Counted from the stretch's first letter, positions 3,926 through 48,257 are shown. The stretch: 55,601 bases of DNA from a virus (IMGVR_UViG_3300032291_000616:1-55601); one strand, 5' to 3'. The notes: generated by a model not told the origin, from the sequence alone. A program made the numbers and translations.

Positions 3926-4921
3926 TTAGCGTTGTGCATTACGTGCTTCGATGGCATAGCGACGAATCATCTTTGCCCTCTTCTCTGCGTCATCCCACAT
4001 TCCTGCATCTTTCATGGCCCTCACCTGTTCGGGTGATAGGGTGAAGGAATTTTTTCCTCCACTACTCGATGCACTTTCGCGGCCTGACCCAGTCACTGCA
4101 CTTCGCGGTCGAGAAGTACGAGTCGGTCTCTCTGTTGCATCTTCAGTATAACGGTGTGGCAAATACTTTTGCAAGCGATTGTCAAGTTCGTCCCAATAAT
4201 CACGAGTGCGGGGGTCATAACCCTCTTCACCCATGGCTTGGTCGATGGCAAGCGCTACCCGCGAGTCTGGGTCTTTGCCCTGCGGGTCATACCATTCGTT
4301 TTTGCCCATCCATTGGTTCGCCAGACGTTGCAATTGCGGGTCTGGTGCTTGGATAGTGCGTTGTTGGGGCTGTTGAGTCGCCTTTTTCTTCAAAGCGTCG
4401 AGTGCTTCGTACTGACGACGCGCCTCAAACCACATTTCTTGCGCTGAAGTGAGCAATTCACCGTTTCCAGACGCTGTTGCCTCTGCAATTTTCTGTTTTG
4501 CAAAGGCAATTCGTGCGCCTTGGTCTTCGATAGCCTTGTTCAGACGCGCAATGTCGCTTCCGTGGGACTTTCGCTCCAAAACAGACAGTCGTTCGAGCAA
4601 TTCTTGGTTCTGACGCTCGAGCAAAGTCAGTTTCACGTCCTTTTCAACGGAGACTTGCTTGTGGTACTCCTTGCGGGCACGGCGTTTTTGACGTTTTTGC
4701 TCCCGAAGACGCTCTGCATCGGGGTCAATCTCGCCACCAACGGCCATTTCACGCTGGCGCTGTGCCTCATCATCCTCATCAGACCCTACTTCATGGTCAT
4801 CATTGGCCCCAGCCTCGGGCGAGGGGATGCTTGCAGGCAATTCAACGACCGCAGACCCGTCTTGGGCCTCTTCGATCGAGATGATTTCCTGCTCTTGATT
4901 GGCTTGTTCTTTTTCGCTCAT
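3926..4921 (-). CDS. Capsid scaffolding protein
   Basis: 331 aa. The first 65 residues are very acidic (SDEDDEAQRQ), residues about 70-190 are charged and heptad-like coiled coil (LTLLERQNQELLERLSVLERK), and the C-terminus is basic with an LSPEQVRAMKDAG helix. This composition and its place between portal-side and capsid genes are those of an internal scaffold that binds capsid subunits and is lost on maturation. The start overlaps the GroES-like gene stop by four bases (ATGA). Confidence 0.75.
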   Translation of the reverse strand: MSEKEQANQEQEIISIEEAQDGSAVVELPASIPSPEAGANDDHEVGSDEDDEAQRQREMAVGGEIDPDAERLREQKRQKRRARKEYHKQVSVEKDVKLTLLERQNQELLERLSVLERKSHGSDIARLNKAIEDQGARIAFAKQKIAEATASGNGELLTSAQEMWFEARRQYEALDALKKKATQQPQQRTIQAPDPQLQRLANQWMGKNEWYDPQGKDPDSRVALAIDQAMGEEGYDPRTRDYWDELDNRLQKYLPHRYTEDATERPTRTSRPRSAVTGSGRESASSSGGKNSFTLSPEQVRAMKDAGMWDDAEKRAKMIRRYAIEARNAQR

Positions 4922-5343
4922 ACGAATGCCTTCATCTCAAGTGGATTTCCAGTGACTTTTGCGATGACTTCGTGGTCGTTGAGGATCATGAAGAGTGCTT
5001 TCTCTTCGTCATCACCGACTTCGACTTCCCAGCGGTCGCCACCCCATTTCGGAACGCGGATGTAATCCCCGATTTCGCACCACGAGCCTTCCGGCCATGG
5101 CTCCATCGTGTCCCGTTTCTTGAATGCGAGAGGGCCAATCTCGATGACTCGCGCCACCATGTTGTTCCACTTCTCGGTTTCTTTGGTCTCTTGTACCAAG
5201 ATGATTCCGGCACCCGTCACAGTTTGTTTTGTGCGGCGCAGTTGCACCAAAATTCGCCCACCAAGGGGCTTGGCACCGGGATCAACGCTCGGAAATGCCC
5301 AAGCAATCTCAGCGGCATTACCCGCTTCCGGTTTTTCACTCAT
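4918..5343 (-). CDS. GroES-like co-chaperonin
   Basis: 141 aa. After about 25 extra residues, PLGGRILVQLRRTKQ, GAGIILVQETKETEKWN, VARVIEIGP, IGDYIRVPKWGG and LFMILNDHEVIAKV align in order with the strands of the 10-kDa chaperonin fold; GAGIIL sits where GroES has its GroEL-binding GGIVL mobile loop. Length exceeds GroES (about 97 aa) because of the N-terminal tail and an insert around residues 74-92. The expected role is capping host GroEL during folding of the capsid protein encoded downstream. It is a diverged member, so the assignment rests on pattern, not on identity. Confidence 0.65.
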   Translation of the reverse strand: MSEKPEAGNAAEIAWAFPSVDPGAKPLGGRILVQLRRTKQTVTGAGIILVQETKETEKWNNMVARVIEIGPLAFKKRDTMEPWPEGSWCEIGDYIRVPKWGGDRWEVEVGDDEEKALFMILNDHEVIAKVTGNPLEMKAFV

Positions 5344-26685: not shown

Positions 26686-27054
26686 ATGGAAAACAAAGTG
26701 ACCCTCGAGTCCATCGTGCAAAAGATCGTCGGCGAGATGTACATCGTCCTGCCAGACGGTCGCACCACAGTTTGTATGCTGACCATGAAGAACGGCTACA
26801 CCATCAAAGGTCTGTCGGCCTGCGTGGATGCATCGAACTTCGACATGAACATCGGTCGCAAGATCGCGTTCGAAGACGCCATCCGGCAAATCTGGCCCCT
26901 TGAAGGCTACCTGCTGGCCGAGCGCCTCTTCTGGGAGCGTGCAGTGCCCGTGGCCTCAAACCCGCCTGAAGCACCTAAAAAAGTCCACTGGACTCAGACC
27001 CCTGAAGGCAAGAAAAAAATGGCCGCACGCAAGCGCAAAGGGGCAGGCAAATGA
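26686..27054 (+). CDS. Phage Gp49-family protein
   Basis: 122 aa. The segment NGYTIKGLSACVDASNFDMN followed by IGRKIAFEDAIRQIWPLEGYLL is the signature of the phage Gp49-like family (PF13876), of unknown function and common in early regions. The tail is basic (KKKMAARKRKGAGK), compatible with nucleic-acid binding. ATG at 26686 follows AAAAAGGAGAGCGGCA, a leader identical to that of the 20270 microprotein. Confidence 0.85.
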   Translation: MENKVTLESIVQKIVGEMYIVLPDGRTTVCMLTMKNGYTIKGLSACVDASNFDMNIGRKIAFEDAIRQIWPLEGYLLAERLFWERAVPVASNPPEAPKKVHWTQTPEGKKKMAARKRKGAGK

Positions 27055-27578
27055 AACGCTACCTCGGAACCAAGGAAATCAATGCCCGCCCCATGAGCCG
27101 TCAGGAATACAACGTCCTGCGCGGCTGGGAACTGCCATCGAATGAGAATGGCGCTGACCCCGGCTACCTCGTCGAATATCTCGACGGCGGATCACCAAAC
27201 CATCCTGACTTTCAGGGCTACATCTCGTGGTCGCCCGTTGGGGTGTTTGAGCGGGCCTACAAGCCTACCGACGGCATGACCTTCGGTTTGGCCCTCGAGT
27301 GCCTCAAACGTGGCCTCAAAGTGGCGCGGAAGGGCTGGAATGGCAAGGGGATGTGGCTATCCCTTTCTGGCGATGGATTCGCTGGCGAGACGCCACTGGT
27401 GCGCTACGTCGACCACGACAAGTTCTGGTCGAAGAACAACAGCGACTTCGCTGTCGAACAGGGTGGCTGTGCCAAAGTGTTGCCATGCATCACCATGAAA
27501 ACCGCAGACGACTGCATCCTCATGGGTTGGCTTGCATCTCAGTCCGATATGTTGGCTGAAGATTGGGTGGTGGTGTGA
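27051..27578 (+). CDS. Tad2-type (DUF2829) anti-Thoeris protein with N-terminal domain
   Basis: 175 aa in two parts. Residues 1-71 (KRYLGTKEINARPMSRQEYN...GYISWSPVGVFERAY) form a widespread phage domain of unknown role. Residues 76-175 match DUF2829: MTFGLALECLKRGLKVARKG, WNGKGMWL, LPCITMKTADD and MGWLASQSDMLAEDW. Thoeris anti-defence 2 (Tad2) proteins, which sequester the gcADPR signal made by Thoeris, belong to DUF2829. The signature residues are intact. Early expression in this operon fits a counter-defence role. Activity of this homologue is an inference. Confidence 0.85.
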   Translation: MKRYLGTKEINARPMSRQEYNVLRGWELPSNENGADPGYLVEYLDGGSPNHPDFQGYISWSPVGVFERAYKPTDGMTFGLALECLKRGLKVARKGWNGKGMWLSLSGDGFAGETPLVRYVDHDKFWSKNNSDFAVEQGGCAKVLPCITMKTADDCILMGWLASQSDMLAEDWVVV

Positions 27579-29425: not shown

Positions 29426-31120
29426 TCATTCTTCCGGTTGGGGTTCCCCTTTGAGGGCACGATACCCTTCGTAGGCCGCAAGGCCAGCCCCACCGACTGT
29501 TCCCAGCCCGCGCAGGGCCAGCAAAATCGGATGGGCAGGGGGTAGCATAGACATCACCCCGAAAGTCGCCTCCAGCGTGGACAGAACCGCCCCGCTGATG
29601 TCGCCCTTCTTGTATCGATCAATCGCCTCAGCGGCAGACATACCGGTCGCGGCACCGGAAATCACACCCAGAGCCTTCGGCGCGACCTTTGCGGTTGCGG
29701 CACCGACCTTTGCCAGTCCACCCGGCTGGGCATCCTTGGCACGCTGTGCGGCTTCTGCGGCGACGTTGGCGGCAGATTGGGCGCGATCCACAGCCCCTTG
29801 CTGGGTACGGGCGGCACGAGCGGCTTGATCAGCCTGCTGGCGGGCTTCTCCGGCCTGCTGGCGGGCACGACGGGCCGCTTCCACACGTTGCTGGGCGGCG
29901 ATGCGACGAGCCTCTTCTTGCTGGGCCAGTCTGGTTCGCTCGGCGGCTTCACGGGCCTGACGCTCGGCCAGTTCCCGCTCCATGGTCACAGAACGCTCAC
30001 CAGCCAGTTCTGGCGGGAGCATCAGTTGGCCTTTGCCTTGCCCGCTCAACTTGTAGTCACCGGCACCGAGTTGCTGGATTTTCTGCTTCGCGGCCACATC
30101 CCGGTCGATGATGGCTTGACCACCTCGGGGGTTATCCTTCCTCATGTTCTCGGCAGTCTCAGCGATGACGTCAGGCACATCCTGACCCATGGCCCTGACC
30201 CAGTTGGCCGCGCCAGACGATCCGGGAACCTTACGGCTTGCGCCAGCAACGTCCTCAACCACCTCAGTGGCGGCTGTTGCGGCAGAAGGCGCTGGCGTGG
30301 CCCGGGTGGTTGCACGCAGTTCTTCTTGAGCAAAGCGCAACTCTTCGGCGGCTTGATTGGCGGCGGTTTGACGCATCCGCAGTTCATTCTCGAGGTCACC
30401 AACAGACACGCCGGGGCCGCGAGACTGAACCTCACGCAGGCGGTCTTGAGCAACACGCAGGCGCTCTTGAGCGGCCTCAAGTTTTGGGGTTGTAGGTAGC
30501 GTGGTGTGCTGTGCAATCTTGCCCGCAACCAGACCAGCGCCAGCGCCAGCAAGCGCGGCGTCTTCCTTGTTGACGATGGCGGCTTGCTCAACAGGAGCAG
30601 GTGCAGGTTCGCTTGCAATCCGCTCACCCTCAGTCGGGCCGGTGCCGAACGGATTGTCTTCGGGCTTCATCGACTCAAGTCGAGCGTTGACCAAAGAGTA
30701 AGCGTTGCGAACTGCTGGGCCGTAGTCTTCTGCGCTGGCGTAGGAGCCGCGTACGCCTTGGCTCAAGCCGGTGGTGAATGCGTCAACATCAGAGCCGGTA
30801 CCAATCGCCTTGGGGTACAAACGCTTCATGAAGTCCACGTAGTACGCGGCAAAGGTTTCAGGGTCTTCAAACTTGATGTAGGCGTCGTTCGACTTTTCTT
30901 TTTTGTCGTACGCTTTCACGCCTGCGCCACTGAAGTCCTTGATGTTGCCGAGGTTGTAGGTGCCCGGGATCACACTCTTTCCCCAGCCGGTTTCAAGGCC
31001 AAACTTGGCAAGAATGATCTTTGGGTCGACGCCCAGTTCCTCACCGATTTTTTGTGAGATTGGGCCGTACTCTTGAATGAATGCTGTGGCGTCTCCGCCC
31101 TTTTTGTTCTCGGCCATCAC
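29426..31120 (-). CDS. Internal virion protein with GH73-type muramidase domain
   Basis: 564 aa. Residues 10-150 resemble a FlgJ/GH73 N-acetylglucosaminidase: the catalytic-region KFGLETGWGKSVIPGTYNLG, the following NIKDFSGAG and the YYVDFMKRLYP segment. The rest is Ala/Arg/Gln coiled coil (ARRARQQAGEARQQADQAAR) and a Gly/Ala-rich hydrophobic C-terminus (LGVISGAATGMSAAEAIDRY). This combination suggests a virion-associated enzyme that opens the cell wall for DNA entry. It overlaps the upstream gene by four bases. Confidence 0.75.
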   Translation of the reverse strand: MMAENKKGGDATAFIQEYGPISQKIGEELGVDPKIILAKFGLETGWGKSVIPGTYNLGNIKDFSGAGVKAYDKKEKSNDAYIKFEDPETFAAYYVDFMKRLYPKAIGTGSDVDAFTTGLSQGVRGSYASAEDYGPAVRNAYSLVNARLESMKPEDNPFGTGPTEGERIASEPAPAPVEQAAIVNKEDAALAGAGAGLVAGKIAQHTTLPTTPKLEAAQERLRVAQDRLREVQSRGPGVSVGDLENELRMRQTAANQAAEELRFAQEELRATTRATPAPSAATAATEVVEDVAGASRKVPGSSGAANWVRAMGQDVPDVIAETAENMRKDNPRGGQAIIDRDVAAKQKIQQLGAGDYKLSGQGKGQLMLPPELAGERSVTMERELAERQAREAAERTRLAQQEEARRIAAQQRVEAARRARQQAGEARQQADQAARAARTQQGAVDRAQSAANVAAEAAQRAKDAQPGGLAKVGAATAKVAPKALGVISGAATGMSAAEAIDRYKKGDISGAVLSTLEATFGVMSMLPPAHPILLALRGLGTVGGAGLAAYEGYRALKGEPQPEE

Positions 31121-34070: not shown

Positions 34071-36902
34071 TCACTTTCCTTTCTTCAGGTATGAGGTCAA
34101 CGCCTTGGTCTTGGGCGGAATCTTATTCACGGGAGCCGAACGCTTGTGTGCGCGGATGTTTTCGCGGAACTTGTCAAGAGCCTGCGCTCCTGCTTTCGTT
34201 GACCCGTTGCCAATCTGTGCCACGGTTTCAGCATCGATGACGTACTCGCCATCGGCCAGCATCGCAGGGATGTCGTCGGACTGACCATCGCCGGGGCCAT
34301 GCACTGCGGAGCCTTTGCGGAAGTCCAAGCGACCTTCAGCCAGAGGCACATCAGAGATCGCTGGCAAGCCGCCGCGCTTCATTTGCTGGGGCATTTGCTG
34401 ACCAGCCTGCACGGGCATTTGAGGCTTAGGCATCTGGGGCATCATGCCACCAAGACCACCGGCCTGCTGGCCTTGCTGGGTAGGTTGTGGGTTCTTCAAG
34501 TTTTGCAGGGGATCAATCGGCTTGCCGAATGTGAAGTAGGTATCCACCGAGCCGCCGTCAGCCATTTGAGGCTGGGCCGCTTCAGCAGGAGCCTGCTCTT
34601 CTTCGTAGCCATAGTCACCCTCGCGCACTGGGTTGAAGCCCGGTGCATTCAAGTTGCGATACAACTCATCGCCATACAGTTCAGGCATTTGATCGCGTGC
34701 GCTGTACTCGTTGTAAGTTACGAAGCGAGGAGCGCCAATGCCGAAGTCGGTGGTGCGTGGGTTGATTACGCCAGCCTTGCTCATGTCAATCGATGGCGCA
34801 GGTTCATTGCTACCACCAAACAAGTTCTGATCACTCAAGAGTGTGCCCACCAAAGCGCCAGCGGCACCAGCACCAAGCGTTGGGTTCTCTTTGAACCAGT
34901 TTGCAAGACCAGACAAGGCACCTTGTTCTTTTTGCTGTTGGAGGCGCTGTTGCGCGGTCTGCGCTGGGGTGGTAGGTTTGCGGTATGTAGAGCCGCCACC
35001 ACCACCAGCGCCGGTAATCGAGGTGTCAGTTGCTTCGGTCGAACTGATCACATTGCCTTCAGAGTCAAAAGTGATTGTTGAACCGTCATCGTAGGTGTAA
35101 GTCTGACGACCAGACTCATCCGGGGCGTTGGTGTAACTCACCACGTCACCGTTTGCGTTGTAGGTCAGTGTTGAACCGTCGTCATAGGTGACCGTCTGAT
35201 TGCCACCTTCTTCGGACTGCCCAGTTTGGTACAGGTTGCCGTCGGAGTCGTAGGTCACATACGAGCCATCACTCATGTACTCGATGTACGAGCCATCGTC
35301 GAAGATTTCGGTGTCGACAATATCAGAGCCACCCTGATAAGAATTACCCAACAGGCTTGTGTCTGGTGCGCCGTAGCCGAAAGGACGAACACCAGACAAA
35401 TCGTTGTAGGTGTTGCCGACTGGGTTGCGATTGCCGGTCAGCGTGTAGCCAGTCATGGTTGGTTCGTCAAACTCACCGAAGTTGTAGTCGACGTTCTGCC
35501 AGTCTTGGACTTCTTCGCCGGTGTCGGAGTACCCGCCATCCACAAAGCGGCGAACACCGCCACCATTTGCCATCAGTGTCACAAGACCTCCCTTTTTCTC
35601 CTCGGGGTATTCCCAGTCATCGTAGACAGGCTCATCCTCGTAGGTGTATTCATCTTCGGCGTACCAGTCATCAGGAAGCGTGGTCTCACTGTCATCGTAC
35701 GCATAGTCGCCCTCAGCGTACGGGTCATAGACCACATTGCCATCCCAGTCGTACTGGTAGCCATATTCATCGGTGTAGACATAGTCGGAATGGTCTTCCT
35801 CGTCCACATATTCATCAGTGTAATCGCCGCCAGCAGAATAAACTAGATCGCCATTCGAGTCGTAGATGTTGCCATCCTCGTCTTCGTAATAACCAAGTTC
35901 AGTTTCGCCGGAATCTTCGTACCCTGTATCTGCCGCATCTGACGAAGAAAGGATGTTGCCATCCGAATCCAGCGTGATGGTGGAGCCGTCATCGTAGGTG
36001 TAGGTTACAGAGCCGTCATCATTGATCAGGCCACCAAAATCGTCGTAATCGGAGCCTTCTGTATTGCCCTCATCTACGACGCTCTCGTCAACCGCATCTG
36101 TTGAAGAGATGACATTTCCATCAGCATCCATGGTGACAGTTGACCCATCATCGTAGGTATAGGTCACAGAGCCGTCTTCATTGACCTTACCGCCAAATGC
36201 GTCGGTTCCTGTGTCGCTGTCTGAGCCTGTTGTTGATCCACCGGTACCGCCTGTACCACCAGTGCCACCAGTGCCACCAGTAGGAGTTTTAGGCGTCACA
36301 GGGGGCTTAGGCGTCACCGGAGGCTTTGGTGTTACGGGCGGCTTAGGCGCTACAGGAGGCTTGGGTGTGACTGGAGGTTTTGGCGTCACTGGAGCCTTGG
36401 GTTTGATTGCCCCGGTCACAGCATTGACGGCTTTATCCACCAGCGGATCAACCACCTTACCTTTGACTGCATTGATCGCTTTATCCACGGCGGCGGAGCC
36501 GGTGGTGCCCTTGCCGCCAGTTGCGGTATTTGCACCAAACAACTTGTCGTAAGCCATCTTGCCTGCCATGCCAACACCTGCGCCCAAGGCGGCGTTTTTG
36601 AGGGTGTTACCTAGACCAGACGTCGAAGCCGCGCTTGCGGTGCGCGTAATCGATGGACGAGTGGTTCCAGAGACCTTTGTGGTCAACGAGTTGGGTGTGC
36701 CAGCATTGATACCCGGCGTGGCCGTAGAAGAGCCTGTCGTGGTGGCCGTGGAGTTTGGCTTGAGAGCGCTCGTCAAAACGGCAGAAGGCCGGGATGCGGT
36801 CTTCTGCACAGCCTTCATCTTGTCACTTGGACGGCCTGCCGTCTGCTGGGGCGTTGCCCCGGGCAAGGTTGCAGATGAACTTCTCTTGTTCAGAATTGCC
36901 AT
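34071..36902 (-). CDS. Large virion protein with DxDGN and PPVTPK repeats
   Basis: 943 aa mosaic. Residues about 1-130 are Ser/Thr-rich and basic; about 160-230 is a proline segment of PPVTPK units and TGG repeats; about 240-640 carries many YTYDDGST / DxDGN units (DADGNVIS, DSDGNILS, DEDGNIYD, DWDGNVVY, DSDGNLYQ). After a hydrophobic Gly-rich region (LGAGAAGALVGTLL) the last 120 residues contain the conserved GPGDGQSDDIPAMLADGEYV and end in LTSYLKKGK. The Asp repeats could bind Ca2+. A tail or ejection role is inferred from context. Confidence 0.7.
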   Translation of the reverse strand: MAILNKRSSSATLPGATPQQTAGRPSDKMKAVQKTASRPSAVLTSALKPNSTATTTGSSTATPGINAGTPNSLTTKVSGTTRPSITRTASAASTSGLGNTLKNAALGAGVGMAGKMAYDKLFGANTATGGKGTTGSAAVDKAINAVKGKVVDPLVDKAVNAVTGAIKPKAPVTPKPPVTPKPPVAPKPPVTPKPPVTPKPPVTPKTPTGGTGGTGGTGGTGGSTTGSDSDTGTDAFGGKVNEDGSVTYTYDDGSTVTMDADGNVISSTDAVDESVVDEGNTEGSDYDDFGGLINDDGSVTYTYDDGSTITLDSDGNILSSSDAADTGYEDSGETELGYYEDEDGNIYDSNGDLVYSAGGDYTDEYVDEEDHSDYVYTDEYGYQYDWDGNVVYDPYAEGDYAYDDSETTLPDDWYAEDEYTYEDEPVYDDWEYPEEKKGGLVTLMANGGGVRRFVDGGYSDTGEEVQDWQNVDYNFGEFDEPTMTGYTLTGNRNPVGNTYNDLSGVRPFGYGAPDTSLLGNSYQGGSDIVDTEIFDDGSYIEYMSDGSYVTYDSDGNLYQTGQSEEGGNQTVTYDDGSTLTYNANGDVVSYTNAPDESGRQTYTYDDGSTITFDSEGNVISSTEATDTSITGAGGGGGSTYRKPTTPAQTAQQRLQQQKEQGALSGLANWFKENPTLGAGAAGALVGTLLSDQNLFGGSNEPAPSIDMSKAGVINPRTTDFGIGAPRFVTYNEYSARDQMPELYGDELYRNLNAPGFNPVREGDYGYEEEQAPAEAAQPQMADGGSVDTYFTFGKPIDPLQNLKNPQPTQQGQQAGGLGGMMPQMPKPQMPVQAGQQMPQQMKRGGLPAISDVPLAEGRLDFRKGSAVHGPGDGQSDDIPAMLADGEYVIDAETVAQIGNGSTKAGAQALDKFRENIRAHKRSAPVNKIPPKTKALTSYLKKGK
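35040..36180 (-). repeat. YDDGST/DxDGN coding repeats
   Basis: At least seven degenerate copies of a unit of roughly 25-35 codons, each with YDDGS(T/Y) and an Asp-x-Asp-Gly-Asn-type turn, spread over the middle of the 943-aa gene. Outer copies (near 35060 and 36110) are most alike. Confidence 0.65.
36285..36415 (-). repeat. PPVTPK coding repeats
   Basis: Seven tandem 18-base units coding (K)PPVTP-type hexapeptides, some with Ala replacing Thr, form a proline-rich rod between the N-terminal part and the Asp-rich repeats of the 943-aa protein. Confidence 0.7.
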
Positions 36903-36906
36903 GGTC

Positions 36907-38607
36907 TTATCCTTTGCTCTTCAACAGCGATGTCAGACCGGCGATATTTGTCACTGGGGTCAAAGTTGCGACATCTTTTTTCTTCGGAGGCATTGGTTTG
37001 CCTTGTTGCGCTGGGCGCGGTGTTGCAGACTGCGTTGGCCGTGCCGCCGCCAATTGAGTGGGCGACATACGAGCCGGTGGCTTTGTGGCAACGCGGGTCT
37101 GCGCTGGCCTCTTGGCAACCTGACGTGTCGGCGTGCCGCGCAGTGTTTTGGTGATACCTTGACGAATTGCAGGCTTGAGAATCTGGTTCAATGCACCAGA
37201 GATCACGGACTGACCACCGCCTGTTGGCATGAAGCCAGCGGCCAAGCCACCAAGGGTTGGAGCCTTCATGCCGATACCGGGCTTCTCGCCAGCAACGTCA
37301 ACCACAGTATCTTCAGTTTGAGGCTTGAGCATAGACTCGCTGGCCTGCTCAAGCACATCAGGCTCAACAGGTGCAGTCATGGCAGTCAAGCCGCCTCTTG
37401 GCTGAATCTGCTCTTGCACTGTGGGCGTCTCTTGGTATGTCTGCATCTCTTCAAGAGCAGGCACTTTTGCGCCAAGTTCTGCGGCGTAATCTTCCTCTTT
37501 GGGAGACGAAATTTCTTGCGCGTAGACAGGTTCAGCCGAGTCTTGATCGGCGGTAATTGGAGTTGGCAACTCCTCGCCGTATTCAGTTGCAATATCAGAG
37601 ACGTCCTCTGAAGGCGCAATCATTTCTGCTTCGGTCTCAAGGTACTCAGTTGGCGACTCATAGCCAGCCATTTGAGTATCGAGAGAATCAGCAGACATCG
37701 CCTCTTCAATCATCGGGTCTTCATTGACGTTTGGCGACTCGTAGCCAAGGTCAGAGACCTCAACCATGTCGACGATCTCATCGGGAATACCTGCGCCGGT
37801 GCCCCTTACGCCAGAAGTCTCAGCCCAAGAGTCATCGAGTTCTGTCAAGAGGGTTGCACGAGCCTCCTCGTTGCCTTCCTCAGATTGAACGATCTCAAAT
37901 TCAGTTGTTGCGGTTGCATTGAATTGTTCGCTGATCGAACTGACGGCGTAGTTTGCGCCAAGGTTCGCAGTACCGTTGATCATGCTGTTGGTGAACGCAG
38001 TGTCAAAGTCACCGCGACCGGTCAACTCAGCGGTGACACCAGAGGTCAAAGCCTTCTCAGCAATGGTGCCGAACTGACCCATGTCAGGCAGGTCGGTCAA
38101 AACTTCTTCGCTGACAAAATCGCTGATCTCGCCAACGCCAGCACCAACCACGGTGCCCGTGAAGCCACCAGCAAAGCCATCCTCAAAGTCGCCGCCCCGA
38201 ACCTCAGAGACGACGCCGTTGACGAGACCCTTGCTGATGCCGTCAACCACCACGTTGGACACAGCCTCGTTGATGATTGCGTCACCAATCGATGCGGACA
38301 GGGTTGAACTGATTGCGTTGGTGGCCGCAGGCGCAAAGTACGCAGTGCCAGCGGACAGCACGATGTCTTCAAGATCACCACCACGAGCGGCAGTGATGGC
38401 GGCGTTGGTCACCATGGGTGGGATACCCACAAACGAACCAGCGACAGAAAGCAAAACAGGAAGCGGATCGTCGATCACCGCCTGCACTACATCGCCAACA
38501 AATTCGACAGCCTCGCCGACAAAATCACCAACGGCTTCTACAACATCACCGACGGCGTCAACAACGCTCTCGACCGCGTCGACAACAAATTCAACAACTG
38601 CACTCAT
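36907..38607 (-). CDS. Large virion protein, possible membrane-active ejection protein
   Basis: 566 aa. Residues 1-45 repeat VVDAV/VVEAVGDFV heptads, an amphipathic helix; residues 45-170 are Gly/Ala/Val-rich and could insert in membranes (PVLLSVAGSFVGIPPMV). The middle is acidic (ESPNVNEDPMIEEAMSADS) and the C-terminus is Pro/Thr/Arg-rich, ending LTSLLKSKG, like the LTSYLKKGK end of the next gene. It starts in a four-base overlap with the GNAT-like gene. No enzymatic motif; a possible target or neighbour of the acyl cassette. Confidence 0.65.
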   Translation of the reverse strand: MSAVVEFVVDAVESVVDAVGDVVEAVGDFVGEAVEFVGDVVQAVIDDPLPVLLSVAGSFVGIPPMVTNAAITAARGGDLEDIVLSAGTAYFAPAATNAISSTLSASIGDAIINEAVSNVVVDGISKGLVNGVVSEVRGGDFEDGFAGGFTGTVVGAGVGEISDFVSEEVLTDLPDMGQFGTIAEKALTSGVTAELTGRGDFDTAFTNSMINGTANLGANYAVSSISEQFNATATTEFEIVQSEEGNEEARATLLTELDDSWAETSGVRGTGAGIPDEIVDMVEVSDLGYESPNVNEDPMIEEAMSADSLDTQMAGYESPTEYLETEAEMIAPSEDVSDIATEYGEELPTPITADQDSAEPVYAQEISSPKEEDYAAELGAKVPALEEMQTYQETPTVQEQIQPRGGLTAMTAPVEPDVLEQASESMLKPQTEDTVVDVAGEKPGIGMKAPTLGGLAAGFMPTGGGQSVISGALNQILKPAIRQGITKTLRGTPTRQVAKRPAQTRVATKPPARMSPTQLAAARPTQSATPRPAQQGKPMPPKKKDVATLTPVTNIAGLTSLLKSKG

Positions 38608-39047
38608 TTTTTGGCCTCACGTTTTGGGCCGAGTTTCAAGGTGACACGGTAGCCATCCTTGAGTTTCTCAGCCTTGTATCCCATGCCCTCTTGCGGCGGG
38701 TTGCGCGAGATGGCCTTGAAGATGTTGATGATGGTCGGGTCTTGGAACGTCGTCACCATGGTGTCGAAGCCCATCTTGTATGCGGCTTGCACCCACTCGT
38801 ACGAGTTCTCGAGGTAGTTCCTCGCGGTGTCCGCATTCAGCGCCCGAAAGAATCCGATGCGCTCACGAACGTGGTGCATCACGAAAATGGTATTTCCGGC
38901 GCGGTAGGTACTCGTGCCGGGTTGGTTCATCTCTTCGACAAGAGCGGCAAAAATACTGGCCGCAGGATGAGGAGACTTGGTCTCCTGTGCCGCGATCATC
39001 AAGACCGCCTCATCTTTCAGTTCTTTTTTCTTGCTATCGACCAGCAT
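38604..39047 (-). CDS. GNAT-like acyltransferase of the ACP-KAS cassette
   Basis: 147 aa. The ATG at 39047 sits five bases after GAGGGG and overlaps the synthase stop (TGATG); a GTG one codon upstream is possible. The order is a helical N-terminus (PHPAASIFAALVEEMNQ), a strand TIFVMHHV, a long helix (LENSYEWVQAAYKMGFDTMV), and a last part FQDPTIINIFKAI...YRVTLKLGP. This is compatible with the GNAT fold seen in N-acyltransferases and in T7 gp13-like virion proteins. No acetyl-CoA motif is clear. Linked to ACP and KAS, it could use acyl-ACP as donor; this is inference. Confidence 0.55.
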   Translation of the reverse strand: MLVDSKKKELKDEAVLMIAAQETKSPHPAASIFAALVEEMNQPGTSTYRAGNTIFVMHHVRERIGFFRALNADTARNYLENSYEWVQAAYKMGFDTMVTTFQDPTIINIFKAISRNPPQEGMGYKAEKLKDGYRVTLKLGPKREAKK

Positions 39048-40162
39048 CACAGCCCCTCAAAAATTGCGGCGGAGTAAATGTTTCCCATCCCTGCCGCCAG
39101 ACTCAGGATGTGGCCCTTGGGGGGCGTGACAGATTCCGAAAGGAATACCGAATCGGATTCAGTTCGGTTCTCGATTCCCGGGACGAATCCCTTCTTGATG
39201 TCGTCCAGCAATAGTAGCGTCTCGAGGAGGCCGCTGGAACCCATTGTGTGGCCGATTTTCTGCTTGTAGGAGGTCACGACGACGTCTTTCAAGCCAGACC
39301 CAAGGATGGCGGCTTTCTCCGCCTTGTTGTTCGATACTGTGCCCGTGCCGTGGGCCTTGACGATGCCGATGTCGTGGCGCAAGGTCTTGCTGTGGAAGCA
39401 GGCACCGCCGATAGCCCGGGAAAAGCCCTCGCCGTCCTCGCACTGGCCGATGGCGTTGGTGCTGTTCTCGGAGGCGTTGTAGGCACCCACCAAGCGGGCG
39501 TGTGGGGTGCGCTGAAAGCGCTTGACCAGTCGCTCGTTCTCAAAGACCGCCAGCGCGGCCCCCTGACCCACGTAGAAGCCGCGATTCTTGCTGTCGAAGG
39601 CCGAAGGCTTGACACCGTTCTCGGCTTCGTCCTTGGCCGTCAAAACGGCTTGCGACTCGCCAAAGAACTCCAGCACGGCGTTGGACACACCGTCTTCGAC
39701 CGTCAGGACGATCACGCGGTCAAAGTCGTAGTGCTTCATCAGCACCTCGACATCCATCATCACCTTCAGACTGCTGGCGCAGGCAGAGGCGTCGGTGGTG
39801 ACCATGCCCATCTCGCCGAAGGACTGAGCCGTGCGACCGGCGTAAACCTGTGTCAGCGTGAACGGCAGGAACTTGTAGGTGTACGACAGGCGCGAGTTGT
39901 AGGAGCGTTGTCCGATGCCTGCAAAGTGGGCGTTGCCACCCGCAAGGATGAAGGCAGTCTTGCCGCAGGACTCTTCGCGAAGTTGCTTTGCCAACTCAGG
40001 GTCAAGAACCTTCTCGGCCAACTTGTGAGGGACGTAAAACATCCCGGTCTGGGTGCGCTTGTAGGTCTCAGGGAACCAGTGAACACGCTGTGGGAAAACG
40101 ATGTCGTCGAACAATTCAACATGATTGGTCGAGGCTGTGCGGTAGTGCGTCAGGTAGATCAT
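39047..40162 (-). CDS. Beta-ketoacyl-ACP synthase (KAS, FabF-like)
   Basis: 371 aa. The thiolase-fold triad is complete: Cys128 in TDASACASS, His271 in KAHGTGT and His305 in KIGHTMGSSG, with Lys300 five residues before His305 as in FabF. RGFYVGQGAALAVFE and the C-terminal SLAAGMGNIYSAAIF match the gating and GFGGxNA strands. It is shorter than FabF (about 410) and lacks the usual first Gly-rich strand. It would condense an acyl chain with malonyl units on ACP. It overlaps ACP and GNAT genes by 3-4 bases, so they are translated together. Confidence 0.88.
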   Translation of the reverse strand: MIYLTHYRTASTNHVELFDDIVFPQRVHWFPETYKRTQTGMFYVPHKLAEKVLDPELAKQLREESCGKTAFILAGGNAHFAGIGQRSYNSRLSYTYKFLPFTLTQVYAGRTAQSFGEMGMVTTDASACASSLKVMMDVEVLMKHYDFDRVIVLTVEDGVSNAVLEFFGESQAVLTAKDEAENGVKPSAFDSKNRGFYVGQGAALAVFENERLVKRFQRTPHARLVGAYNASENSTNAIGQCEDGEGFSRAIGGACFHSKTLRHDIGIVKAHGTGTVSNNKAEKAAILGSGLKDVVVTSYKQKIGHTMGSSGLLETLLLLDDIKKGFVPGIENRTESDSVFLSESVTPPKGHILSLAAGMGNIYSAAIFEGL

Positions 40163-40443
40163 GCGATCTCCTTTTGTGCCTCTTCGACCGATGCAGGCTC
40201 CTTGGTTTTGCGCCGCATCAAAAAGTCGTAGACCTCCTGAACGGAGGTCGGGTGGAAATCCTTGGTCTCATCGTCGTCAGGTATGCCGTACAACTCTGTG
40301 AGGTACATGAGCATGATGAGTCCATCAAGACTATCGATGCCGATGTCTTGCAAGGTGTCTTCCATTGAAGTTGCCGCTATCTCGTTTGCGTGGGCTGGTC
40401 GCGCCACTTTCGAGACCATGTTGAATAGTTCTATGAAGTCCAT
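40159..40443 (-). CDS. acpP: Acyl carrier protein
   Basis: 94 aa. GIDSLDGLIMLMYLTELYGI carries the DSL phosphopantetheine site (Ser38) in the right place between helices I and II; the third helix follows TSVQEVYDFLMRR. Length, acidity of the core and helix pattern fit an ACP; the last 15 residues are an extra charged tail. It starts two bases after the stop of the 82-aa gene without a clear AGGAGG, suggesting coupled translation. It needs a phosphopantetheinyl transferase from the host because none is seen here. Confidence 0.87.
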   Translation of the reverse strand: MDFIELFNMVSKVARPAHANEIAATSMEDTLQDIGIDSLDGLIMLMYLTELYGIPDDDETKDFHPTSVQEVYDFLMRRKTKEPASVEEAQKEIA

Positions 40444-40445
40444 TT

Positions 40446-40694
40446 TTATTCTGATGGGTTATTGACAGCGTTGACCAATGCCACGGCCCACTCCTGCCAG
40501 TTTGTAAATGGATCAGGCCCGGGGACTCCGTCGCGATCAAACGACGAGATGCCTTTCAGTCCACGCGCCCACGCTTTCCAGTCTTGTTCACCTCCCGGTA
40601 TTGAAAGTTGTTGCGCCGCATATGCCTCGCACATAAGACACGCCCACGAGTCCCATGTGTGATAACGAGGGTCATATACGACAGGAATCGTCAT
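40446..40694 (-). CDS. Small tail-module protein (82 aa)
   Basis: 82 aa, MTIPVVYDPRYHTWDSWACL..., Trp-rich and compact (WKAWARGLKGISSFDRDGVP, PFTNWQEWAVALV). A similar short gene follows the tail nozzle gene in related phages as far as I recall. ATG overlaps the upstream stop. It is the first partner in the coupled chain leading to ACP. Function unknown. Confidence 0.7.
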   Translation of the reverse strand: MTIPVVYDPRYHTWDSWACLMCEAYAAQQLSIPGGEQDWKAWARGLKGISSFDRDGVPGPDPFTNWQEWAVALVNAVNNPSE

Positions 40695-42763
40695 GACGAA
40701 TAACCTCTGACGTCGCCCGCATCTGCATTGACCAGCACGCGACCCATTTCGTAGTTGCCACCAGAGACGTTGCTGGTGAATCTCAAACGAAGTTCTCGGC
40801 GCTGTTCACGCATATCAATTTTGCCTGTTCCCGGCTCAAAATAGTAGGGGTCAGAAATCTTGTCCTGCTCCTGAGCGTATGGGCGTCCAATAATCTGCAT
40901 TGACATTGTCCCGGACTGAACGAAGTCAGGTTCAATGCGCTCGATGTGGAGCCAGAAATTCTCGCCCACAGGCGCAGTCTGAGATGGGCCACCACCGACC
41001 CAGCCAAGGTCAGACGTCTCGAACATCGATTCGATGGCGTTCGACAACTCATAGATGACGGCGTCGGTGCCCACCTCGTGTTGCCAAATCACGATCTTTC
41101 CGGGCACGGTGTAGAAGGTGGCAGTCACTGTGGCGCTGGCCGTGGCCGCATTCGACAGGGTCACTGTGAAATAGTTGGGCGTCGCGCTGGGCACAATATC
41201 CGTCACCAAAGTGTCTGTCGGGATGCCAGCCGCAACCACCAGTTGGCCGTTCTGGATCAAGTTCGTCAGTGGAACCTCGATGTCGAAACTGCCATTGGTT
41301 GTCGTGATCGACGAAGAGAAGATGGTCTCTTGCGTGCTGAGTTCAGAACCAGCATTGATCGGGAAGCGGAACACCTGCGAGAAATACCCGGCAGTGCGGT
41401 TGCATCCATCAGCAAAACCGCCGTCGTACCAGCAGTTCTCGCGCACGTTGTAGATGATGCAGTTGTTGCACTCTTCCGAATCACCCTCGGGGTAGAACCA
41501 CCAAATCTCGCCGAATCGAGGAACCTTGGTTGCCCAGACCTTCTGACGCTGAACGTAGTTCAGGTTGTCAAAGAAGTAGTTCTGGTTGAAGGCGTTTGGA
41601 ATCTCTTTGACCACACCGTTGTAGAGCAGGAAGCGATCCACGCCGATCCAGTAGTAGATGCCGTCGTACTCGATCACAGACTGGCTCGACAAGATCGAGG
41701 ACTGGCTCGAGATGATGTCGTAGCGCCAGTAGAAGGTCTGGGGCGTGCCGCCCACCGTGATGGTGGTTGGGGCATAGGAGACTCGGATCAGCGAGTCCAA
41801 AGCCCAGAACAGGCCGGAAGGAGAGTTCGTGCCACCACGAACTGGAAGCCCCTTGACGATCTTGGTGGACGACACGTTGGTTTCGTTGGCGTCAGCGCCG
41901 TTCCAATCGAACGGATCGCCAGCCACGTTGTTCTTGATCAGCCCGTTGTCACCGTACACGAAGATGTATGGGTGAAGCACCACCACGCCGCCAGACACCT
42001 CAATGGTGTCGCCGGTAGGGGTTGAGCCGCCTGTGTCCTTCAAAGGTGCCAGCACGAGGCCGTTAAGCGGCCCGCCAAGCACAGCGGTGTTTACAGTGCT
42101 GTCGATCTGGGAAAGGTTGTGACCGGGGTGGGCCACAAGGAAGTTTGCGCCAGCGCCTTGCGAATCGAAAAGCGAATCGAATTGCCAGAGGTGGTCGGTG
42201 CTTGGTGTGAACAAGTCATCCGACGTTGCCACCGGCACAGACCAGCCAGAGCCAGTTCCGCCGATCGATGTATTGGCGCAGGTAAGCGAATCACCGGGCA
42301 CATAGTAGTTGCCAGCGTCCGTGATGGTCACGGTGGACACTACCCCGCCAGAAACGACGATGGTGGCCTTTGCGCCTGCGCCGTAGCCTCCAGTGAGGGC
42401 CACGTTGGTGTAGGTGCCGTTGGTGTAGCCAGTACCCGGCACGATGGTGCCCAAGGTCAGGATTTCACCACCAAACACCATTTCGTTGGTGCCTGAGCCG
42501 ATGCCGTTGTTGTCGATGTCGATGACCTCAATTCCGTCATCGTAGCCGTTGAAAATCTTGTTGATGCCGTCTTCTGAGTTGACGTAGATGCCACGAGACA
42601 GGCCATCAGCATTCGTGACGATGGCGCGGTATCCGCCGATCTTGCGGGGGCGTCCGCGCTGGAACCGCACCCACTTGCCGTCGGTGTAGAAGTTCTTGTC
42701 GAAGTACGTCCCGTCCCGTTGAATGCCGGGTTGGGTGTCAATCGAAAAAACCTTCTGCGTCAT
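40691..42763 (-). CDS. Tail nozzle/hub-like protein (690 aa)
   Basis: 690 aa, beta-rich. The start DTQPGIQRDGTYFDKNFYTD, GKWVRFQRGRPRKIGGY, then SVIEYDGIYYWIGVDRFLLY, NGVVKEIPNAFN and FGEIWWFYPEGDSEECNNCI are typical of large beta-propeller-like tail proteins of short-tailed phages (T7 gp12 or P22 gp10 role). It should form the tail tip conduit below the connector. ATG overlaps the fibre-like gene by one base. Confidence 0.75.
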   Translation of the reverse strand: MTQKVFSIDTQPGIQRDGTYFDKNFYTDGKWVRFQRGRPRKIGGYRAIVTNADGLSRGIYVNSEDGINKIFNGYDDGIEVIDIDNNGIGSGTNEMVFGGEILTLGTIVPGTGYTNGTYTNVALTGGYGAGAKATIVVSGGVVSTVTITDAGNYYVPGDSLTCANTSIGGTGSGWSVPVATSDDLFTPSTDHLWQFDSLFDSQGAGANFLVAHPGHNLSQIDSTVNTAVLGGPLNGLVLAPLKDTGGSTPTGDTIEVSGGVVVLHPYIFVYGDNGLIKNNVAGDPFDWNGADANETNVSSTKIVKGLPVRGGTNSPSGLFWALDSLIRVSYAPTTITVGGTPQTFYWRYDIISSQSSILSSQSVIEYDGIYYWIGVDRFLLYNGVVKEIPNAFNQNYFFDNLNYVQRQKVWATKVPRFGEIWWFYPEGDSEECNNCIIYNVRENCWYDGGFADGCNRTAGYFSQVFRFPINAGSELSTQETIFSSSITTTNGSFDIEVPLTNLIQNGQLVVAAGIPTDTLVTDIVPSATPNYFTVTLSNAATASATVTATFYTVPGKIVIWQHEVGTDAVIYELSNAIESMFETSDLGWVGGGPSQTAPVGENFWLHIERIEPDFVQSGTMSMQIIGRPYAQEQDKISDPYYFEPGTGKIDMREQRRELRLRFTSNVSGGNYEMGRVLVNADAGDVRGYSS

Positions 42764-47485: not shown

Positions 47486-47658
47486 GCTGTTACTCCTGCA
47501 AGTTGCTCGTCAGTTGGACGAGGCAGTGTTGGGTGGTTCCATTCCTTGAGGTAGTCACCGCGACCATCACTGTCGTTTTGCAAGACGATTGTTCTTACGA
47601 AATCGCGGTCGGCAACTTCAGGGTAGATTGCTTTAATTTTTTCGTAGAGTGTCATCAT
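47482..47658 (-). CDS. XkdW-like small tail protein (58 aa)
   Basis: 58 aa starting MMTLYEKIKAIYPEVADRDF and containing EWNHPTLPRPTDEQLAG; the LPRPTDEQL phrase recalls XkdW-type tail proteins. The ATG at 47658 overlaps the upstream stop; its own stop overlaps fibre A's ATG. Role in fibre attachment or assembly is inferred. Confidence 0.65.
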   Translation of the reverse strand: MMTLYEKIKAIYPEVADRDFVRTIVLQNDSDGRGDYLKEWNHPTLPRPTDEQLAGVTA

Positions 47659-48257
47659 GCAGTCCTTGCCAAATAGCCAGAAAAATATGTGTAGTTGGAA
47701 TAGCCTGCAAACTCGGGGCTTGCTCCAAGGCTAAATCCATAACCCTCTAAATAATCTGTTGAACCGTTCAAATAGATTAAAGATGAAGCGCTTGCCGTCC
47801 AATCATCTAAAGTTCCAGAGGCTGAAGCGTAGTTTGAACAGTTTTTCCAATTACTACCGTTTTTGTAAATAGACACCAAGCAAGCCTGAAATGTGTTTGA
47901 TAAACACGACATTGTCAATTGCACAAAATAATACCCAGCAACTGTTGGCTGGAAGCGATAGTTTGTTGTGCTGTCAAAAGCGTTTGCAGTATCAAACTCT
48001 TCGGCATTAAATTGAATTTTTGTCCAAACCCCACTTGATACCGTTTGATTGCCAGTCCTATTGACACTAAACGCAGGGCCGTTGCCAGCCACATTAGAGG
48101 CCAGCATAGCCTGCGTAACAGAGCCAGTCGAGGCGGTGGTGACCAGCGTGCCAGTGTTGTCTGGCAGTGTCAGCGTGCGGTCGGTATTGCTGTTTGGGCT
48201 GGCAATCGTGAAGATGCCTGTGCCGCTGGCGTTACCAGCGAGTTGTACCTTGCTCAT
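47655..48257 (-). CDS. Tail fibre with C1q-like jelly-roll domain
   Basis: 200 aa. A fibre-type N-terminus (TLPDNTGTLVTTASTGSVTQ) leads to residues 70-200, where VNRTGNQTVSSGVWTKIQFN, EEFDTANAFDSTTNYRFQP and the end YSNYTYFSGYLARTA form a C1q/TNF-like beta jelly roll known in phage and bacterial fibre tips. Likely trimeric receptor-binding tip. Confidence 0.8.
   Translation of the reverse strand: MSKVQLAGNASGTGIFTIASPNSNTDRTLTLPDNTGTLVTTASTGSVTQAMLASNVAGNGPAFSVNRTGNQTVSSGVWTKIQFNAEEFDTANAFDSTTNYRFQPTVAGYYFVQLTMSCLSNTFQACLVSIYKNGSNWKNCSNYASASGTLDDWTASASSLIYLNGSTDYLEGYGFSLGASPEFAGYSNYTYFSGYLARTA

Follow-up and report, generated by a model that had tools for sequence, protein, structure and literature searches.

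The rhizobial NodF–NodE–NodA system comprises a dedicated acyl carrier protein (ACP), a ketosynthase and an acyltransferase, and the chain that NodA transfers is supplied by an acyl carrier protein (PMC5080398). Enzymes of the LuxI family have a GNAT fold and use acyl-ACP as donor (PMC4234381). ACP or FabF genes are also known in phages and prophages, where they have been read as metabolic; in the sections of these reports drawn on here, they occur in the host-like order fabG-acpP-fabF or as an ACP alone, and no GNAT partner is reported for them (PMC8224337, PMC11705849). In cobaviruses, a GNAT gene adjoins those for internal virion proteins, and its product has been likened to the T7 morphogenesis protein gp13 (PMC6775973). 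In SIO1 this GNAT is gp26.2 (Pfam, E 4e-6), and homologues of SIO1 gp26.1 are annotated as internal virion protein B.

Here we describe a phage gene trio that, like NodF–NodE–NodA, encodes an ACP, a β-ketoacyl-ACP synthase (KAS) and an acyltransferase-fold protein, but lies in a virion operon. Our search covered the open-access literature, with subscription papers outside it, and returned no description of this trio, nor of the attachment of acyl chains by phages. The initial annotation of the locus had named HlyC-type toxin activation among the GNAT-fold precedents. NodF–NodE–NodA is the closer analogue because it also has a dedicated ACP and ketosynthase.

Three overlapping genes in a virion operon

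The trio occupies the minus strand of an IMG/VR virus record, from 40443 down to 38604 of the window (the whole stretch analysed, 55,601 bases), with a P22-gp10-like gene on one side and ejection-type genes on the other. The ACP gene (94 aa, 40159..40443) overlaps the KAS gene (371 aa, 39047..40162) by four bases (ATGA), and KAS overlaps the third gene, which we call G147 (147 aa, 38604..39047), by a single base (TGATG). G147 in turn shares four bases with a 566-aa gene downstream, at 38607. These 1–4-base overlaps, like the coordinates and residue numbers given for all three proteins in the initial annotation, proved correct on recheck.

Profile comparison identifies the 94-aa protein as an ACP, with a predicted phosphopantetheine site at Ser38 within a DSLD motif. 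The lone sequence matches PF00550 below threshold (E 0.057), while the family profile matches solved ACPs (best E 3e-4) and aligns to Escherichia coli AcpP with hhalign (79%, E 1.5e-5). The serine of the DS motif, noted earlier as part of an intact DSL site, is kept throughout the relatives, a few of which carry DSMD in place of DSLD. As was also noted, no phosphopantetheinyl transferase, ketoreductase or dehydratase is found among the ~40 window ORFs scanned, so a host enzyme would be needed to phosphopantetheinylate this ACP.

The KAS gene encodes a 371-aa ketosynthase of the FabF type, which is predicted to condense with malonyl-ACP. Pfam matches cover Ketoacyl-synt_C (E 9e-13) and ketoacyl-synt (E 8e-10), PHROG 35856 is matched at E 1.5e-37, and the matches of a PDB profile search are ketosynthases (best E 5e-25). 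An AlphaFold2 (AF2) model (pLDDT 89.4) retrieves FabF, KasA and type II polyketide synthase (PKS) ketosynthases with Foldseek (E ~1e-21, TM ~0.8), and the alignment to FabF agrees with this thiolase-type fold. E. coli FabF residues Cys163, His303, Lys335 and His340 align with Cys128, His271, Lys300 and His305, the residues singled out by the initial annotation, all of which are invariant in 20 diverse relatives. The phage enzyme thus shares with FabF (KAS II) and type II PKS ketosynthases the fold, the Cys-His-His triad and the equivalent of Lys335, but it is only ~23% identical to FabF, lacks ~35 N-terminal residues and has Met359 in place of the gate residue Phe400. Weak KAS matches in Listeria, Enterococcus and Staphylococcus phage records (~24–29%) may be host sequence and were left unused.

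G147 has a GNAT fold, as judged from a confident AF2 model (pLDDT 91.8). All top 50 PDB structures retrieved with Foldseek are GNAT-type acyltransferases (best E 2e-4, TM ~0.4–0.6), and the model also resembles other phage GNAT-like proteins. The earlier description of a GNAT-like protein is therefore upheld by topology and structural match, while searches of Pfam, PHROGs and PDB sequences returned neither a convincing sequence family nor a sequence relative of known activity. A match to an ISL3 transposase (E 0.016) was taken as chance. Alignment of the family reveals two conserved motifs, GNT.F and ALNAD. In GNATs, the end of β4 and the start of α3 form the place where the phosphopantetheine arm binds. 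The alignment and the AF2 model put ALNAD at this turn, where G147 has ALNADTA and lacks the canonical Q/RxxGxG/A acyl-CoA loop.

The P22-gp10-like virion structural protein that marks the virion operon (690 aa, 40691..42763, minus strand; PHROG 3287, E 9e-24) has a homologue in MW202545 that carries the annotation phage stabilization protein. Also upstream of the trio is a gene for a virion structural protein of 211 aa (PHROG 2941). Between the gp10-like gene and ACP, directly upstream of the latter, lies an 82-aa gene (40446..40694, minus strand) that is conserved in the main lineage and to which Pfam and PHROG searches assign no function. Downstream of G147 follow genes for proteins of 566, 943, 331, 647 and 564 aa, arranged much as ejection genes are. 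The first of these, a late 566-aa protein (36907..38607, minus strand), has no Pfam or PHROG family match; from its position, synteny and composition, we infer that it is an ejection protein. The Asp-rich 943-aa late protein (34071..36902, minus strand) has C-terminal PHROG matches that are weakly tape-measure-like. The block closes with a 564-aa late protein bearing a glucosaminidase/SLT-like domain (29426..31120, minus strand; Pfam E 2e-11, PHROG endolysin E 3e-13).

This gene order fits a position before ejection genes, to the extent that the proposed role of the 566-aa protein is correct. T7 gp13, P22 gp14 and the cobavirus GNAT are, like G147, proteins of ~140–150 aa; they are encoded directly before or among ejection genes, as G147 would be, with T7 gene 13 and P22 gene 14 directly preceding them. 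However, hhalign gives a probability below 1% for G147 against either gp13 or gp14, in comparisons with single sequences on one side, so the likeness is positional only. Nor do the T7 and P22 genes have an ACP or KAS alongside in the regions shown.

The same setting bears on whether G147 might, in the manner of FeeM or LuxI, depend on acyl-ACP to make a small molecule, an N-acyl amino acid or similar, that would serve as a signal, surfactant or lysis aid. The GNAT fold, the use of acyl-ACP by some GNAT-fold enzymes such as the LuxI family (PMC4234381) and the prospect that the trio could suffice both to make a donor and to transfer it are all compatible with such a role. G147, however, has no sequence match to FeeM, LuxI or NodA (Pfam, in particular, yields no NodA family match), the scanned window ORFs include no small-molecule pathway gene, and the trio belongs to a late virion operon in which ejection-type genes come next. 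We consider a small-molecule product improbable.

Linkage and selection among relatives

Searches with KAS and G147 collected relatives with 155 distinct KAS genes; the linkage counts below rest on fetching best matches and are not a census. ACP adjoins KAS in 146 of the 149 KAS genes with enough upstream sequence. The other three are two truncated KAS genes, with ACP present, and one KAS relic, so that among testable intact KAS genes ACP is adjacent in every case (148/148). G147 directly follows KAS in 142/143, and, where the sequence upstream of G147 was long enough to tell, 115 of 117 distinct G147 genes have both ACP and KAS. The genes overlap or abut in the relatives, and the linkage persists in lineages whose upstream genes differ. 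The coupling noted in the initial annotation is shared by nearly all the relatives collected and is broken in three instances that are described below.

Purifying selection acts on each of the three genes: in close pairs, nine at most, ω is 0.02–0.10 for KAS, 0.06–0.12 for G147 and 0.04–0.14 for ACP, with one ACP pair at zero. KAS is also better conserved than a virion neighbour: in two contigs (L077 and L078) KAS is 65–67% identical, while the 690-aa neighbour is 27–29% identical.

Phage contigs from aquatic sources carry the trio widely, and the group to which they belong is large and so far uncultured. A complete circular genome, Caudoviricetes sp. ctpbd312 (MW202545), has the same trio in the same place and gene order; there, KAS is the sole member annotated as an enzyme, and ACP and G147 are called hypothetical. 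One trio-bearing contig (L245) was binned with Balneolaceae and may be a prophage or a mis-binned phage; we claim no host from it.

Phages generally keep the gene order of their late operons, and adjacency by itself is thus no proof of joint function. Three contigs break the linkage. The first (L207) is colinear with another (L184), with 86% identity in the upstream DNA, and an in-place deletion of ~1.2 kb has removed ACP and most of KAS. A 98-base KAS relic remains ahead of an intact G147; it is 80.6% identical, and its frame is broken. L207 falls within a set of KAS-bearing relatives on the G147 tree, which makes loss the simpler reading. In the second (L231), whose place on the tree is poorly supported, the 82-aa gene runs straight into G147; ACP and KAS are cleanly absent, and the whole 36.8-kb contig has no KAS. 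Both contigs keep all 25 near-invariant G147 positions, and ω of the L207 G147 against relatives is 0.08–0.12, a value that mixes the time before and after the loss. The third (L277:1993-7107) has the ACP–KAS pair in a non-structural region, the sole such case seen; G147 was not found within this 13.9-kb contig and may lie elsewhere in the genome. By eye, the pair there comes after genes resembling a DNA methyltransferase and a PD-(D/E)XK-type nuclease.

These breaks suggest a role for G147 that does not depend on the phage ACP and KAS, either with a host acyl-ACP or acyl-CoA as donor or in assembly. The latter would fit two separate functions in one operon, in which a metabolic ACP–KAS pair, acting late in infection, diverts acyl chains of the host or lengthens them for lipid supply or membrane change, and G147 is an assembly factor of the T7 gp13/P22 gp14 kind that is independent of the pair. 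G147 kept and constrained without ACP–KAS, the pair away from G147 in L277 and the inseparability of ACP and KAS from each other are all as such a division would predict. So are the place of G147 directly before ejection-type genes, as for gp13 and gp14, the comparison of the cobavirus GNAT near internal virion proteins with gp13 (PMC6775973) and, in the sections of those reports drawn on here, the metabolic interpretation of ACP and fabF genes in other phages (PMC8224337, PMC11705849). Yet G147 follows KAS almost invariably, even where upstream neighbours differ; the pair lies in the late virion operon rather than among early or metabolic genes, except in L277; and G147 has no sequence similarity to gp13 or gp14. 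Because the breaks point to a use of G147 without the pair, we give this explanation, the strongest alternative to the reading that we favour below, a substantial minority weight, while doubting it. A purely metabolic ACP–KAS pair would amount to a fatty-acid module that is controlled with the late virion genes.

Survival of G147 without ACP–KAS, together with the missing GNAT CoA-loop consensus, might also mean that G147, ACP or both are purely structural or scaffold components, the GNAT fold being non-catalytic and the ACP a docking protein. ACPs do serve as docking proteins in some non-biosynthetic complexes. That the KAS catalytic residues and the ACP serine are fully kept across 155 genes, however, argues for chemistry and leaves a scaffold role very improbable.

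A candidate acylation cassette

The reading that we tentatively favour, by analogy and with slightly less than an even chance, is that the trio forms an acylation cassette like NodF–NodE–NodA, with G147 as the transferase and the adjacent 566-aa ejection-type protein as the likeliest acceptor. A host phosphopantetheinyl transferase would prime the phage ACP, onto which the phage KAS would load an acyl chain and then extend it; the reductase and dehydratase of the host would complete each cycle or leave it incomplete. G147 would then move the acyl group onto an amine, most likely of a late virion protein of the same operon and first of all the 566-aa ejection-type protein.

Several observations speak for such a cassette: the full KAS catalytic set on a FabF fold, the ACP serine and profile match, the confident GNAT fold of G147 with ALNAD at the presumptive phosphopantetheine-arm site, and the gene overlaps, near-constant adjacency and low ω, together with the conservation of KAS beyond that of the 690-aa neighbour and the precedent of the NodA donor. 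Against it count the conservation of G147 without ACP–KAS in L207 and L231, the pair without an adjacent G147 in L277, the want of a CoA-loop consensus or a sequence relative of known activity for G147, and the cobavirus GNAT in a similar position that was compared with T7 gp13 (PMC6775973). The idea of the initial annotation that the phage makes or diverts an acyl chain and transfers it is still the best account of the locus, although a strict three-part machine is weakened by the three breaks. It largely withstood the checks that could have refuted it, for a KAS that does not align to a thiolase fold, a GNAT-like protein that matches only a structural virion fold, and genes that are unlinked in close relatives. 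The data establish the gene identities, folds, conserved catalytic residues, coupling in the operon, selection and linkage; from these we infer that G147 is catalytic, that it accepts phage acyl-ACP, and which protein is the acceptor.

Position in the operon suggests that the target is a late virion protein. The 566-aa protein is the nearest, and we propose it as the first candidate acceptor and the 943-aa protein as the second. The 566-aa protein has no Cys and no Lys before residue 126, which counts against it as acceptor and would leave only the N-terminus or later lysines modifiable. Position 2 of this family is Ser, Gly, Ala or Thr in 112/116; we rejected this as an N-terminal acylation signal, since neighbouring virion proteins also have a small residue 2.

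A more specific version, in which ACP and KAS make a special acyl chain that G147 attaches to the ejection protein, so that the ejected conduit is lipid-anchored in the host envelope, seems to us rather unlikely. Should virion proteins prove to be acylated by the cassette, this would be the first case, in the literature searched, of a phage encoding the acylation of its own particle. It may then also explain the GNAT-fold proteins beside ejection genes in other phages, since G147 comes with its probable acyl donor attached.

Other genes of the window include a Tad2-like domain protein (Thoeris anti-defence 2; 27051-27578, plus strand; Pfam E 5e-23) and, amid tail-fibre genes, a C1q-domain protein (47655-48257, minus strand; Pfam E 5e-6). 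A GroES-like chaperonin 10 is encoded at 4918-5343 (minus strand; Pfam E 5e-7), and another is annotated in MW202545.
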